A DNA stretch of 64,000 nucleotides from Planctomycetota bacterium (GTDB taxonomy: Bacteria > Planctomycetota > UBA1135 > GCA-002686595). Within the stretch, counting starts at the first letter, position 1. Each line of letters opens with the position of its first letter. The position numbers and the translations under genes were made by a program. The DNA is taken from the NCBI GenBank assembly GCA_026692665.1, contig JAPLOF010000063.1:62001-126000 (forward strand). Direction: 5' to 3'. Shown here piece after piece: positions 5,135-43,727 of the stretch. The notes below the pieces were generated by a model. The model had not been told where the DNA came from and did no database searches. It saw nothing but the letters and a program-made list of their open reading frames with translations.

Positions 5135-6201
5135 CCGAGTACGACATCGCAGTGATCGCCGGCGACGGCATCGGACCGGAAGTCACGCGCGAGGCACTGA
5201 AGGTGCTCGACACGGCGGCCTCGATCTTCGGCTTCAAGACGCGGCGAACCGCGTATCCATTCGGCACCGAGCACTGGCTCAAGACGCAGGAGATCTTCCC
5301 CGAGTCGGCGTTCTCGGAGATCCGGGGCAAGCAGGCGATCTACCTGGGCGCCATCGGGGATCCGCGCGCGCCGGTCGGCCTGATCGAGTACGGCGTCATC
5401 GCGAAGATGCGCTTCGAGCTCGACCTGTACGTGAACCTGCGGCCCGTGCGCTGCTACGACGACCGCATGTCGCCGCTCAAGGGCAAGGGCCCGAACGAGA
5501 TCGACATGGTCTTCGTGCGCGAGAACACGGAGGGCGCCTACACCGGGTCCTACGGGTTCGCGCACAAGAACCTGCCGATCGAGGTCGCCACGCAGGTCAT
5601 GGTCTACACGCGCGTCGGCACCGAGCGCGTGATCCGCTACGCCTTCGAGCTCGCGCGCAGCCGCAACAAGCGCAAGAAGGTCACGATGATCGACAAGGCG
5701 AACGCGCTGCGCGCGCAGGACCTCTGGACGCGCACGTTTGCCGAGGTGTCGAAGGAGTACCCGGACATCGAGACCGACCACGCCTACATCGACGCGGCTT
5801 GCATGTGGATGATCAAGAATCCCGAGTGGTTCGACGTCGCGGTCACGTCGAACCTGTTCGGCGACATCATCACGGACCTCGGCGCGATGATCCAAGGCGG
5901 CATGGGCATCGCCGCGTCGGCCAACATCCACCCGGGGAAGCTCTCGCTCTTCGAGCCGATCCACGGCTCTGCGCCCAAGTACGCGAACCAGAACAAGGCC
6001 TGTCCCGTCGCGGCGATCCTGGCCGCGGGCATGATGTGCGACTACCTGGGCGAGAAGGCCGCCGGTTCGGCGATCGAGAACGCGGTCGTCGACCTGGTTC
6101 GTTCGGGTCGCATCAAGGGCGTCAACACGGGGGATCACCCGACCGATCAGGTCGGTGACATGGTCGTCGCCGAACTGAAGAAGGTCCTGGCGAAGGTCTG
6201 A
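5131..6201 (+). CDS. isocitrate/3-isopropylmalate dehydrogenase family protein
   Basis: A 356-residue beta-decarboxylating dehydrogenase. It has the N-terminal AGDGIGPEV motif, substrate-binding arginines in KMRFELDLYVNLRP (Arg94, Arg104) and RENTEG (Arg130), the metal-binding NLFGDIITD segment and the cofactor loop EPIHGSAP. Family members oxidise and decarboxylate 3-isopropylmalate, isocitrate, homoisocitrate or tartrate. The direct coupling to a dehydratase of the isopropylmalate type favours leucine biosynthesis, but RENTEG is more usual in isocitrate, homoisocitrate and tartrate enzymes than in classical LeuB, so substrate assignment stays open. Start ATG overlaps the upstream TGA; length is normal for the family. 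Confidence 0.9.
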   Translation: MTEYDIAVIAGDGIGPEVTREALKVLDTAASIFGFKTRRTAYPFGTEHWLKTQEIFPESAFSEIRGKQAIYLGAIGDPRAPVGLIEYGVIAKMRFELDLYVNLRPVRCYDDRMSPLKGKGPNEIDMVFVRENTEGAYTGSYGFAHKNLPIEVATQVMVYTRVGTERVIRYAFELARSRNKRKKVTMIDKANALRAQDLWTRTFAEVSKEYPDIETDHAYIDAACMWMIKNPEWFDVAVTSNLFGDIITDLGAMIQGGMGIAASANIHPGKLSLFEPIHGSAPKYANQNKACPVAAILAAGMMCDYLGEKAAGSAIENAVVDLVRSGRIKGVNTGDHPTDQVGDMVVAELKKVLAKV

Positions 6202-9117: not shown

Positions 9118-9135
9118 ATCCGCGGGCTGGAAACA

Positions 9136-9171
9136 CCGGAGGCCGGGCCCCGATCGGGACCCGGCCTCCGG
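9136..9171. terminator. bidirectional terminator hairpin between convergent genes
   Basis: A perfect 12-base stem (CCGGAGGCCGGG with its complement CCCGGCCTCCGG) encloses a 12-base loop in which CCC and GGG can pair further. It lies 18 bases after the stop of the secreted protein on + and 19 bases after the stop of the cysteine-repeat gene on -, so it can serve both convergent genes. No long T-tract follows on either strand. Confidence 0.65.
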
Positions 9172-9190
9172 TCGTTCGCAGCCGCCGCGA

Positions 9191-23214: not shown

Positions 23215-25224
23215 ATGAGCCTGAAGTCCCGCCTCCTGCGCATCACCCTCATCGGGCTCGCCGTGATCCTCTTCGCGGGCTACTTCGCGTTCTCGACCCT
23301 GTTCTTCAACCCGCTGGAGAGCGACCTCGACGTGGACGTGGCGGCGCTGGCGCCGCGCGATGTCGACTTCTATGCCTCGCGCGGCAAGCTCGAGGACGCC
23401 TTCTCCAAGTTCCCGCGGCTCGAGATCCAGGATCGCCTCGACAAGAGCCCGGGTTGGAAGGCCTGGATCGGAAGCCCCGAGTACGCCGCGCTCGACCAGG
23501 AGCTGGGCATCGAGAAGACGCTCGCGTCCCTGCGCGAAGCCGTGGGGCAGATCCCGCTCGGCAAGGAACCGCAGGACATCTACGGCGGGCGCGACCTGGC
23601 GGTCGCAGGCTACTTCCGCGGACGCGGGCTCGAGAACGCCGACTGGGCGGTGTATGGGCGCGCGTCGTGGATGGGCAAGCTCGGGGCCTCGGCACTCTTC
23701 CGCTCCACCTGGTTCGGGCTCGCGGATCGCGGCCTCAAGGTCGCGATCGACGGCAACGTGGCGTCGGTCGAGGGCGCCGGGCTCGCGCGCAAGCTGTACG
23801 TCACGCGGATCCAGGATGTCGTCATCGTCGCGACGAAGCCGGAACTCGCGAAGGCCGCGCACGAGCTGAAGGCGCGCGCCTACACGGATTCCGTCTACCA
23901 GAGCGCCGTGTACTTCGACCACGTCGAGCGCGCGTCCGGCCGCGCGCCCGAGCGCGACGAACTCGAGGTCGTCATCGACGTGCCGAAGCTCCTGTCCGCG
24001 CTGGCGCTGCCCGAGCCGTGGCCGGACACCCGATCCCAGGACTTCCTGCCGGCATTCCTCGGGCGCCTGTTCCAGGTCAGCTCGCTGAAGACCGCCGCCG
24101 GCGTGTTCCAGGCCGGCGAGGGCGCGTCGCTCGACCTCTACAGCGACCTGAACTCGGAGCGCCTGACGACGGACATGCAGAGGCTCTACCGCGCGCGGGG
24201 CTTCTCGCGCGAGGACCTCCTGAACTCCGCGGCGGCGATGGCGCCGGCGGACAGCGGCCTCTTCGTCTACCTGCACGCGGGATTGGGCGACCTGCTCAAG
24301 CTGGCGAAGGACGCCGCGGAGCCGGCGCTGCGCGCGAACCTCGAGGACACCTTCCGCAACACGGGCAAGTTCCCGACGCTCGACGCGCTGATCGCGCACC
24401 TCGACGCCTCGTTCAAGGATCGCGCGGCGATCATCGTGCGCCCGAACGACTACCCCGTGGACCCCGACGGGCCGCAGAACGACGGCACGCCCGTCCCCGC
24501 GTGGGCGGTGGTCCTGTGGTCGAAGGACGTGGCGAAGATCGTCGATCTGCGCGACACGATCGGGACCAAAGGGGCGCTGTTCGGGCTGCAGGGCCGCAAG
24601 CCCGGCGAGCCCGGCTACTTCAACAACACGGAATCCGGCTTCGAGATCCGCGAGTTCTGGTCGCCGCTCGTGCCCGGCACCGGGATGATCGCGACCTGCA
24701 ACGCGAACGAGCTCACGATCGTCACGAATAGCTTCCGGATGCTCGGGCACATCCTGAAGACCAGCACGCAGGGCGGCGACCGCTATCCGCGCCTTTCGGA
24801 CGAGCCCACGTTCCAGGCGCTCGTGCGCAGCTCGCTCTCGAACGGGAACGCGTTCCTGTGGGCGAACCCGCGGTCGATCGCGCCCATCCTGCGAGCGACG
24901 GCGCGGCGCCGTGCCGAGGACAAGATCGTGGTCGACTGGAAGGCCGAGCGGGAGCGCGTGGAGACGAAGGTCTTGCGCGAGAAGTTCCCCGGCAAACGGC
25001 GCCCGCTCTCGGCCGAGGACCAGGCCGCGCTCGACCTGGTCGTGGACCCCGAGATCGAGAGCATCGAGCGCCGCATCAAGAACGAGCAGGTGCCCGCGAT
25101 CGTCGCGCAGGAGGAGCGCGCCCTGACCTACGCCGAGCAGATCACGGCCGCGATGGCCGTGCTGGCGCTCAACCCGAAGAGCTTCGAGCTCTCGGTGCGG
25201 GTGCTGGCGCCCCTGCCGGAGTGA
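23215..25224 (+). CDS. large membrane-anchored protein of unknown function
   Basis: A 669-residue protein with an N-terminal anchor (LLRITLIGLAVILFAGYFAF, about 8-27) and a long exported body. Segments such as DVDFYASRGKLEDAFSKFP and VYLHAGLGDLLKLAKDA recall DUF3352-like proteins, but I am not certain. The C-terminal 150 residues are charged and helical. No catalytic motif is visible. The first ATG of the frame with a hydrophobic anchor was chosen; the upstream in-frame stretch is the shadow of the aminotransferase gene. Its TGA stop lies inside the left arm of a 148-base palindrome, so the transcript end is built into that structure. Confidence 0.75.
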   Translation: MSLKSRLLRITLIGLAVILFAGYFAFSTLFFNPLESDLDVDVAALAPRDVDFYASRGKLEDAFSKFPRLEIQDRLDKSPGWKAWIGSPEYAALDQELGIEKTLASLREAVGQIPLGKEPQDIYGGRDLAVAGYFRGRGLENADWAVYGRASWMGKLGASALFRSTWFGLADRGLKVAIDGNVASVEGAGLARKLYVTRIQDVVIVATKPELAKAAHELKARAYTDSVYQSAVYFDHVERASGRAPERDELEVVIDVPKLLSALALPEPWPDTRSQDFLPAFLGRLFQVSSLKTAAGVFQAGEGASLDLYSDLNSERLTTDMQRLYRARGFSREDLLNSAAAMAPADSGLFVYLHAGLGDLLKLAKDAAEPALRANLEDTFRNTGKFPTLDALIAHLDASFKDRAAIIVRPNDYPVDPDGPQNDGTPVPAWAVVLWSKDVAKIVDLRDTIGTKGALFGLQGRKPGEPGYFNNTESGFEIREFWSPLVPGTGMIATCNANELTIVTNSFRMLGHILKTSTQGGDRYPRLSDEPTFQALVRSSLSNGNAFLWANPRSIAPILRATARRRAEDKIVVDWKAERERVETKVLREKFPGKRRPLSAEDQAALDLVVDPEIESIERRIKNEQVPAIVAQEERALTYAEQITAAMAVLALNPKSFELSVRVLAPLPE

Positions 25225-25362
25225 GCAGAACGGCAGTACGGAGCCAGGCTCGACTCCGCCGTTTTCGTTCCTCTCGTTCCGCGCGCCGCGGCGCACGGAA
25301 CGAAAGGAACGAAAACGGCGGAGTCGAGCCTGGCTCCGTACTGCCGTTCTGCTCTCTCCGGC
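25215..25362. repeat. 148-bp near-perfect palindrome (74-base arms)
   Basis: Positions 25215-25288 and 25289-25362 are reverse complements with only three mismatches (25222/25355, 25273/25304, 25282/25295), so 71 of 74 pairs match and there is essentially no loop. The left arm begins in the last codons of the upstream gene and includes its TGA stop (25222-25224). The right arm ends 42 bases before tRNA-Leu. As RNA it would form a very long hairpin; as DNA it could extrude a cruciform. It has no transposase and no T-tract. It may be a mobile palindromic element, an extreme terminator or, less likely, an assembly fold-back. Confidence 0.95.
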
Positions 25363-25403
25363 CCTGCTACCGCGCGTGAGGGACGCGCCGCCGGAGAGAG
25401 AAG

Positions 25404-25491
25404 TGGTGCCCCGGACTGGGGTCGAACCAGCAAGGGTGATTAGCCCACAGGCACCTCAAGCCTGCGCGTCTGCCAATTCCGCCACCGGGGC
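25404..25491 (-). tRNA. tRNA-Leu (anticodon GAG)
   Basis: Read on the minus strand, a GCCCCGG/CCGGGGC acceptor stem closes an 85-base body with a long variable arm typical of class II tRNA. The anticodon stem CAGGC/GCCTG encloses the loop TTGAGGT, giving anticodon GAG (top strand CTC at 25455-25457), which decodes CUC and CUU leucine codons. The T loop GGTTCGACCCC is intact and CCA is encoded at the 3' end (25404-25406). It stands alone, with the 148-base palindrome on its 3' side. Confidence 0.97.
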
Positions 25492-25627
25492 ACCAAAGGG
25501 GCGGGGAGTGTAGGGGCCCGTCCACGGAGGCGCAATATGGCCGTCGCGGTCCGTTCGGTGGGCGGGCGCGGGGCTCTTCCCGGTCGAGGACGCTCGCCCC
25601 CCTCGCGCGGGGGGTATCCTCCCCGCC

Positions 25628-26365
25628 ATGACGCATCGAACCCTCGGAATCGTCGCCGCACTCCTCTTCTTGGCCCCTCGACCGGAGGCCGCGCCGCCGC
25701 GACCGGGCGATCCGGTCCCCGCCGTCACGGGCCGCGTCGTGTTCGAGGGCACCCCGCCCGTTCCGAAGGATCTGCCGTCGACACCCGAGCAGCAGAAGGG
25801 CTGCTGCCCCGACGGCAGCGCGGTCGCCCTGGGGGACCCGACGCTGCAGATCGACGCGAAGGGCGGCATCGCGAACGTCGTCGTCACGATCGAGGTCGAG
25901 GGCGTGAAGGCCGAGCCCGCGAAGGCTCCCCTCGTCATCGACCAGAAGCGCTGCGTGTTCGAGCCGCACGTCGCCGTCCTGCACGCGGGATCCAAGGTCC
26001 AGTTCGTGAACAGCGACAGCGTGACGCACAACGTGCGCGCCAGCTCGCTCAAGAACGACTCCTTCAACTGGGTCATGACGCCCGGCGGCAAGGAAGAGGT
26101 CGTCTTCGCCAAGGCCGACCGCGTCATGATCGGCTGCGACTACCACCCCTGGATGAGCATGATCGTGTTCGTGACCGAGACGCCCTACCACGCGGTGACC
26201 GCGAAGGACGGCACGTTCTCGATCCCGGGCCTGAAGGCCGGCACGTACAAGGCCAAGCTGTGGCACGAGAAGCTCGGGCGCCAGGAGATCGAAGTCGTCG
26301 TGAAGGACGACGGTTCCGCCGCGCCGGTCGAAGTCAAGATGGCCGAGAAGAAGAAGAAGACCTGA
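25628..26365 (+). CDS. exported cupredoxin-like (plastocyanin-type) protein
   Basis: A 245-residue protein with a short signal (GIVAALLFLAPRPEAA). The central domain has a type 1 copper site: His134 (SVTHNVR), Cys170, His173 and Met176 in GCDYHPWM, with the Cys-x2-His-x2-Met spacing of plastocyanins. A C-terminal module (DGTFSIPGLKAGTYKAKLWHEKLG) resembles carboxypeptidase-regulatory beta-sandwiches common behind such domains in methylamine-utilisation-like proteins. It probably carries electrons or binds copper in the periplasm. The protein ends in a Lys run. The next gene starts one base after this stop, so the two form an operon. Confidence 0.88.
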   Translation: MTHRTLGIVAALLFLAPRPEAAPPRPGDPVPAVTGRVVFEGTPPVPKDLPSTPEQQKGCCPDGSAVALGDPTLQIDAKGGIANVVVTIEVEGVKAEPAKAPLVIDQKRCVFEPHVAVLHAGSKVQFVNSDSVTHNVRASSLKNDSFNWVMTPGGKEEVVFAKADRVMIGCDYHPWMSMIVFVTETPYHAVTAKDGTFSIPGLKAGTYKAKLWHEKLGRQEIEVVVKDDGSAAPVEVKMAEKKKKT

Positions 26366-42926: not shown

Positions 42927-43669
42927 GGCGCGGCGCGCGCGTGGCGCCGGTAGATCTCGAGCAGGCCGCCGCGCGCGAAGACGTCCGCGGGCAACCCGTG
43001 TTCCGCGATGCGGCCGTCGAGCAGGACCGCGACCTGGTCGCAGCGCTCGGCGAGATCGCTCGCGGCGTGCGACGCGATCACGACCGTGGTCCCCGCGGCG
43101 CGCGCCTCGTCCAGGATCTCGTGCAGGACCACGAAGCCCTCGGCGTCGAGACCGGCCGTCGGCTCGTCGAGCAGGACGAGGTCTGGGTCGTGGATCCAGG
43201 CTTGCGCGATGCCGAAGCGCCGCAGCATCCCGCGCGACGACCGTCCGAGCGTCTGCCGCGCGTGCGCGCGGAGGCCGACGCGCTCGAGCCGCTCGTCCGC
43301 GCGCCGGGAGAGCTCGCGGCCGCGCAGTCCGTGGATCGAGCCGGCGAGCTTCAACGCCGCTCGAATCGACATGTCGGCCGGGAACAGGGCGTCGTCGGAG
43401 AGCCAGCCCACGCGGTCGGCCGCGGCGGCCGCGCGCGGCGCGCATCCGAGCACGCGGATCGTGCCCGCATCCGGCGCCTCGACGCCCGCGACGAGGCGTA
43501 GCAGCGTGGACTTGCCCGAGCCGTTCGGGCCCGCGAGTCCGAGTCGGGCACCGCGCGCGACCCCGAGGTCGACGCCACGCAAGACGTCGGTGCGTGCGAG
43601 CCCGAACCAGCGCGCGTAGCACTTTGCGACGCCCGCGAGCTCGAGCGCCATGCCTTGGGAAGTGGACAT
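42923..43669 (-). CDS. ABC transporter ATP-binding protein (ABC-2 type)
   Basis: A 248-residue ATPase. Walker A is GPNGSGKST at about 47-55, Walker B LVLLDEPTAGLD and the switch histidine follows in VIASHAAS. The signature is altered to SSRGMLRRFGIAQAW in place of LSGGQ, a form common in ABC-2 exporters such as CcmA and NodI relatives. The annotated ATG (43669) lies in the 3' end of a strong hairpin; Met7 (43651, MALELAGVAK) may be the true start. Membrane and TPR-like genes follow with four-base overlaps, defining one operon. Confidence 0.9.
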   Translation of the reverse strand: MSTSQGMALELAGVAKCYARWFGLARTDVLRGVDLGVARGARLGLAGPNGSGKSTLLRLVAGVEAPDAGTIRVLGCAPRAAAAADRVGWLSDDALFPADMSIRAALKLAGSIHGLRGRELSRRADERLERVGLRAHARQTLGRSSRGMLRRFGIAQAWIHDPDLVLLDEPTAGLDAEGFVVLHEILDEARAAGTTVVIASHAASDLAERCDQVAVLLDGRIAEHGLPADVFARGGLLEIYRRHARAAP

Positions 43670-43702
43670 TCCGCCGCGCGAGGACCGGCTCGCGCGGCGG
43701 AA
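43669..43702 (-). terminator. 14-bp perfect hairpin touching the start codon of the ABC ATPase gene
   Basis: A perfect 14-base stem (TTCCGCCGCGCGAG with its complement) around the six-base loop GACCGG ends at the A of the ATG at 43669. It lies 25 bases after the stop of the upstream minus-strand gene, so it probably ends that transcript. It also hides the ribosome-binding area of ATG 43669, which supports the later Met7 start or a structural control of translation. No T-tract is present. Confidence 0.6.
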
Positions 43703-43727
43703 TGCTAGTGGAAACCGGAGCTCGGCG

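Follow-up and report, generated by a model that had tools for sequence, protein, structure and literature searches.

An apparently mobile, REPIN-like palindrome with host gene ends recorded in its arms in a planctomycete genome

REPs and REPINs are common bacterial repeats. As described by Bertels and Rainey (2011, PMC3116915), a REPIN consists of two inverted REPs and a spacer that together form one long hairpin with compensatory changes in the spacer, and these elements are extragenic, present in multiple copies and mobilised by RAYTs. The account of Di Nocera (2013, PMC3733652) places REP dimers within larger palindromes, with one consensus per genome. Furthermore, template switching, in which replication proceeds along the nascent strand, has been described as making or perfecting inverted repeats in a single event (Monttinen and Loytynoja 2022, PMC8794818). 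How REPIN copies are made and why their arms stay matched are unsettled, and the copies described here would record both the side that served as template and the extent of copying.

Like the REPINs described in PMC3116915, the palindrome analysed here is an inverted pair with a spacer, forms a hairpin as a whole unit and has many dispersed extragenic copies; in a closed relative, two counterpart units flank a RAYT gene. Unlike the REPINs of that description, it has a foot of GTACGG instead of GT[AG]G, its arms go on pairing past the element itself, where host DNA and the ends of genes begin to be included, and no RAYT was found to flank it in the source genome, as judged from the fetched flanks of six Y1_Tnp loci. 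It shares with the REP dimers of PMC3733652 a position inside a larger palindrome, whereas its outer arms, unlike the palindromes reported there, are locus specific and at some loci equal the end of the neighboring gene. The copying along its own strand that we propose would make inverted repeats as in the template switching of PMC8794818, which concerned RNA genes, whereas mobile palindromes and copied gene ends with stop codons are at issue here. The best explanation, which we hold to be fairly probable, is a REPIN-type nonautonomous mobile palindrome, that is, an inverted REP pair, that came to lie near a stop codon and whose arms were extended by fold-back copying.

The source genome (G000), that of an uncultured planctomycete, is a Planctomycetota MAG of 4.58 Mb in 64 contigs, 90% complete. 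In the window, by which we mean the whole stretch of 64,000 nucleotides analysed, a repeat search placed a 148-bp palindrome at 25215-25362, with arms of 74 nt each (25215-25288 and 25289-25362) that are 96% complementary and have 0 nt between them. A base-by-base check gave 71 of 74 pairs, with the arms differing at 3 positions, and thus reproduced the near-perfect loopless palindrome of a preliminary description made from the same DNA. The chance of at least 71 of 74 pairs at one centre is 6e-34 given the base composition of the window, and 4e-29 such palindromes would be expected in 64 kb. Its RNA fold reaches -152.9 kcal/mol, compared to -59.3 +/- 3.8 for 200 shuffles. The next best palindromes of the window, at 9135-9172 and 43667-43704, are ordinary hairpins with arms of just 19 and 16 nt.

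Two genes converge on the palindrome. The upstream gene (23215-25224, forward strand) encodes 669 amino acids without a Pfam match and is conserved in the family to which the genome belongs; its nearest named relative, at 77% identity, is found in a Planctomycetota MAG. Its 3' end lies within the left arm, and the TGA stop at 25222-25224 is where the preliminary description had seen it. On the other side, a tRNA-Leu (gag) located by ARAGORN at 25404-25491 on the reverse strand is transcribed towards the palindrome. This tRNA position leaves a distance of 41 bases to the right arm, which had been said to reach to within 42.

From outside to inside, copies consist of a locus-specific outer arm (0 to about 27 nt), a family core and a copy-specific tip, which measure 22, 25 and 27 nt per arm in the window copy. 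The left outer arm (25215-25236, forward strand) comprises the final codons of the upstream gene, its stop and a further 12 nt, pairs at 21 of 22 positions with 25341-25362, and on its coding side resembles the gene end in a genome of the same genus (G001). It is followed by the left core, TACGGAGCCAGGCTCGACTCCGCCG (25237-25261, forward strand), and by the left half of the tip (25262-25288, forward strand), whose sequence varies among copies and which pairs at 25 of 27 positions, base by base, with the right half (25289-25315, reverse strand). The right core (25316-25340, reverse strand) is an inverted copy identical to the left one. The right outer arm (25341-25362, reverse strand), a near-copy of the gene end in inverted orientation, is probably a copy of 25215-25236, as suggested by the arm pairing and by the 47-nt gap of G001, which holds no counterpart of it. 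Part of this arm, 25349-25362, also pairs with 25390-25403 (14 nt, 93%), a stretch adjoining the 3' end of the tRNA-Leu that constitutes a third copy of GCCGGAGAGAG; this stretch could be the real template for the outermost bases of the right outer arm.

The preliminary description had proposed a genome-wide search for other copies of the arms, and this search revealed a multicopy family. The whole palindrome gave 74 matches at 37 places, strands counted apart, and the 25-base core, with the foot GTACGGAGCCAGGC, gave 42 matches at up to 3 mismatches, compared to 0 for a reversed control. Multiple copies rule out a unique sequence or a plain terminator. The exact core pattern had 0 matches in genome_contigs, from which G000 itself is possibly left out, and 0 in viral_contigs, and a phage or broadly shared origin was rejected on these counts. 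Among relatives, 5 of 61 genomes match the core (G000, G001 and G007, and weakly G031 and G047); a stricter core pattern matched neither G031 nor G047.

Copies in G000 are also where contigs end: 29 of 128 contig ends lie inside copies, a count made up of 26 of the 36 places read plus the ends of contigs C17, C37 and C30. Assembly evidently fails at these sites, as would be expected if the palindrome were a fold-back artefact of assembly or library preparation, yet short-read assembly breaks at real palindromes too. We consider such an artefact highly improbable, because the genes on either side differ, the arms carry three mismatches, the neighbors are conserved in G001 and G007, and the same build occurs inside the single contig of a closed relative (G030) as well as in the separately assembled G001 and G007. 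The family would explain where short-read assemblies of these planctomycetes break. The end of L009 and the start of L019 (contigs C59 and C35) both continue one gene end with sequence that is nearly the same but has mismatches, which suggests strain variants within the MAG.

In several cases, two contig ends have an outer arm in common: the C15 start and C41 end (23 nt), the C11 start and C37 start (23 nt), the C17 end and C37 end (27 nt), the C61 start and C16 start (20 nt), and the C1 start and C57 end (18 nt); the C25 end and C19 start were also paired, by eye. Each pair probably represents both sides of a single palindrome. Since choosing these pairs by their common arms would make counting circular, they were excluded from the pairing statistics, which in G000 concern seven full units. 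For tip positions 6-16 of these units, pairing amounts to 0.88 within copies but to 0.39 between copies, so that the compensatory changes between arms that are characteristic of REPINs are present in the tips. The outer 20 nt pair at 0.63 within versus 0.34 between copies. Since single values span 0.30-0.95, with scant outer pairing (0.30-0.40) in three of the seven, outer arms are long in some copies and almost absent from others.

Most copies lie just past gene ends. With a crude codon-composition gene finder, gene ends in G000 mostly lay at distances of 3-30 nt to the palindrome. Both sides could be read in 10 units, and none of these lay between two gene starts, a count that includes the tRNA-Leu and assigns the gene on C35 to the far side of C59 and the ORF on the reverse strand at L020:2196-3830 to that of C26a. 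This distribution, together with the convergence of gene and tRNA-Leu and the very stable RNA fold, would fit a selected, nonmobile host hairpin, either a bidirectional terminator or an RNA-stability element, in which selection at the RNA level keeps the arms paired. However, a 25-base core at tens of unrelated loci, missing from most orthologous sites, is unlike terminators; moreover, no T-run intrinsic terminator was found in 25100-25650 and no Rfam family matched at gathering score in 24900-25700. We therefore regard a host hairpin of this kind as improbable. The layout would suit the bidirectional transcript end mentioned in the preliminary description, as gene and tRNA both run into the palindrome, but the search for a T-run terminator gave no match. 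One G000 copy, at L007:2013-2119 on contig C56, lies between genes that by eye resemble rpsO (S15) and pnp; in E. coli, an RNase III hairpin lies between rpsO and pnp. On contig C26, the units at L020:1996-2188 and 5384-5576 consist of inverted cores around nonpalindromic centres of about 140 nt that resemble each other, perhaps an ancestral or MITE-like form.

Comparison of the site in related genomes, another check proposed at the outset, showed that the upstream gene and tRNA-Leu of G001 are separated by 47 nt without a palindrome. This site is one of 17 among 19 orthologous gene ends in G001 that lack the core; C56b is counted here from a core search of the matched locus. The other two (C17b and C20s) have the core, although C20s, where the G001 contig stops 13 nt past the stop of the gene with TACGGAGCCAGAC, was counted as such while unscored by the comparison. 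The matches for C26a and C26b are distant paralogues (37-42% identity) and were dropped from the 19 loci. Such presence versus absence at orthologous sites is indirect evidence of past mobility of the family. The palindrome is real and appears to have been mobile in the past. The suggestion of a mobile palindromic element at a gene end accordingly gains from the dispersed family, the G001 site without a palindrome and the position of most copies just past a stop, though it had overlooked both the family and the locus-specific outer 22 bases of each arm, which were probably copied from a gene end. In G007, the upstream gene and tRNA-Leu are adjacent as well, and their gap holds a palindrome of its own, built from the feet A and B described below.

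The arms hold an unusual record of host gene ends, of which the window copy is one example. At the C15/C41 junction, itself reconstructed from two contig ends and synteny, the upstream gene ends in GCTGAAGAAGCTGAAGTAG within a 23-nt arm, and the exact inverse opens the far side, before the next gene. The same genes are adjacent in G001 and G007, where the coding end is recognisable and no inverse copy is present. At C17/C37 and at C17b, both converging genes end inside the common arm. Inverted gene ends of this kind are what fold-back synthesis along a nascent strand would leave behind. Among open-licence papers, we found none that deals with host gene ends copied by REPINs or with REPINs nested concentrically.

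A different origin for the outer arms would be that the same mobile element inserted into the centre of an older small palindrome, a terminator hairpin or another REP, the outer arms being the two halves of the target. The account of PMC3733652 describes REP dimers inside palindromes in T. roseum, A. variabilis and H. neapolitanus, and two empty sites of G001, those of C61/C16 and C11, already form a short hairpin that holds both stops. The nesting of elements in G007 points in the same direction. On the other hand, relatives have no such hairpin at the window and C15/C41 sites, a 23-nt target palindrome is unlikely to arise from the coding end of a gene, and the length of the outer arm differs from copy to copy. 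On balance, insertion into a preexisting palindrome seems to us a rather unlikely source of the outer arms, although both processes, fold-back copying and insertion into an existing palindrome, may occur.

The nesting concerns a repeated element of G007 with two feet, A and B, B lying 56-64 nt further in. A further element, C, lies outside A in L122 and L124 and inside B in L126. As C was defined from these same three loci, its identification is looser, with 4 of 30 mismatches in L126 and, for one of the L122 arms, 6 of 30. The elements of G007 sit concentrically, one within another. It is possible, and we put this forward tentatively, that fold-back copying is part of insertion or growth, capturing inverted gene ends, transplanting stops between converging genes, offering new palindrome centres as insertion sites for further elements and building Russian-doll palindromes of about 230-300 bp in G007.

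Returning to the REPIN-type element that we favour, we propose the following course of events. A RAYT acting on single-stranded DNA would have spread the family, and hairpins would have landed or survived just past stop codons, within a few bases. During replication or insertion itself, a hairpin might then be elongated from its 3' end with its own strand as template. A stretch of up to about 25 bases of the adjacent gene end, with the stop codon among them in the present case, would in this way be placed as an inverted copy on the other side before the normal template was resumed. Repeated fold-back copying would keep the arms matched, while tips and flanks of different copies drift apart. 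Hairpins between converging genes would be tolerated and may serve as transcript ends. We infer the copying mechanism, as well as a dependence on RAYT and a role in termination in G000. If this scenario is true, the end of a gene, stop codon included, can be overwritten with that of a neighbor. The fold-back idea is testable locus by locus.

The closed relative G030, a single contig from the same family as G000, contains 42 distinct units, nearly all of them 97-98 nt long, that have the common foot GTACGGCGTCAGGCAC. Compared by eye, 14 of 16 bases are alike between this foot and that of G000, GTACGGAGCCAGGCAC. The flanks of G030 units pair over a mean of 11.0 nt, compared to 4.9 nt for shuffled partners, with a maximum of 6.4 in 2000 shuffles. 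In an ungapped comparison, the halves of the 98-nt unit differ at 14.3 of 49 positions within copies versus 10.1 between copies, which speaks against matched arms within this unit. The centre of the unit looks asymmetric, so that the halves may be out of register. The claim that arms are kept matched is based on the tips in G000 and the outer flanks in G030. Two units of G030 flank a RAYT-type gene whose stop codon lies inside the arm of one of them, and the encoded protein matches Y1_Tnp above and REP_Tyr_transpos below the cut-off.

With respect to classification, the 5' GT[AG]G tetranucleotide does not occur beside the REP stem, where the foot reads GTAC, and we therefore speak of a REPIN-like element instead of filing it as a REPIN. 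In 17 of 39 outer flanks, GTAG is present but without a fixed position (shuffle mean 5.9), and the account of PMC6006769 reports that GT[AG]G is missing from some RAYT subclasses.

SbcCD cuts hairpins such as these. SbcD had no match in G000, G001 or G007; as 22 of the 37 family genomes likewise gave no match, the association does not reach significance, and loss of SbcCD is rejected as the reason that the palindromes survive. A RAYT of G000 as driver is not supported either, as 0 of the six Y1_Tnp loci have a core or palindrome alongside in the fetched flanks, some loci being cut by contig ends. These six RAYT-like genes (L068-L073), mutually 72-96% alike in DNA, have more in common with a multiplying insertion sequence than with a single-copy RAYT. 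In G007, a 228-bp palindrome (L163:1057-1284) adjoins a RAYT-like ORF; this ORF is of the G000 type and has a stop codon in it.
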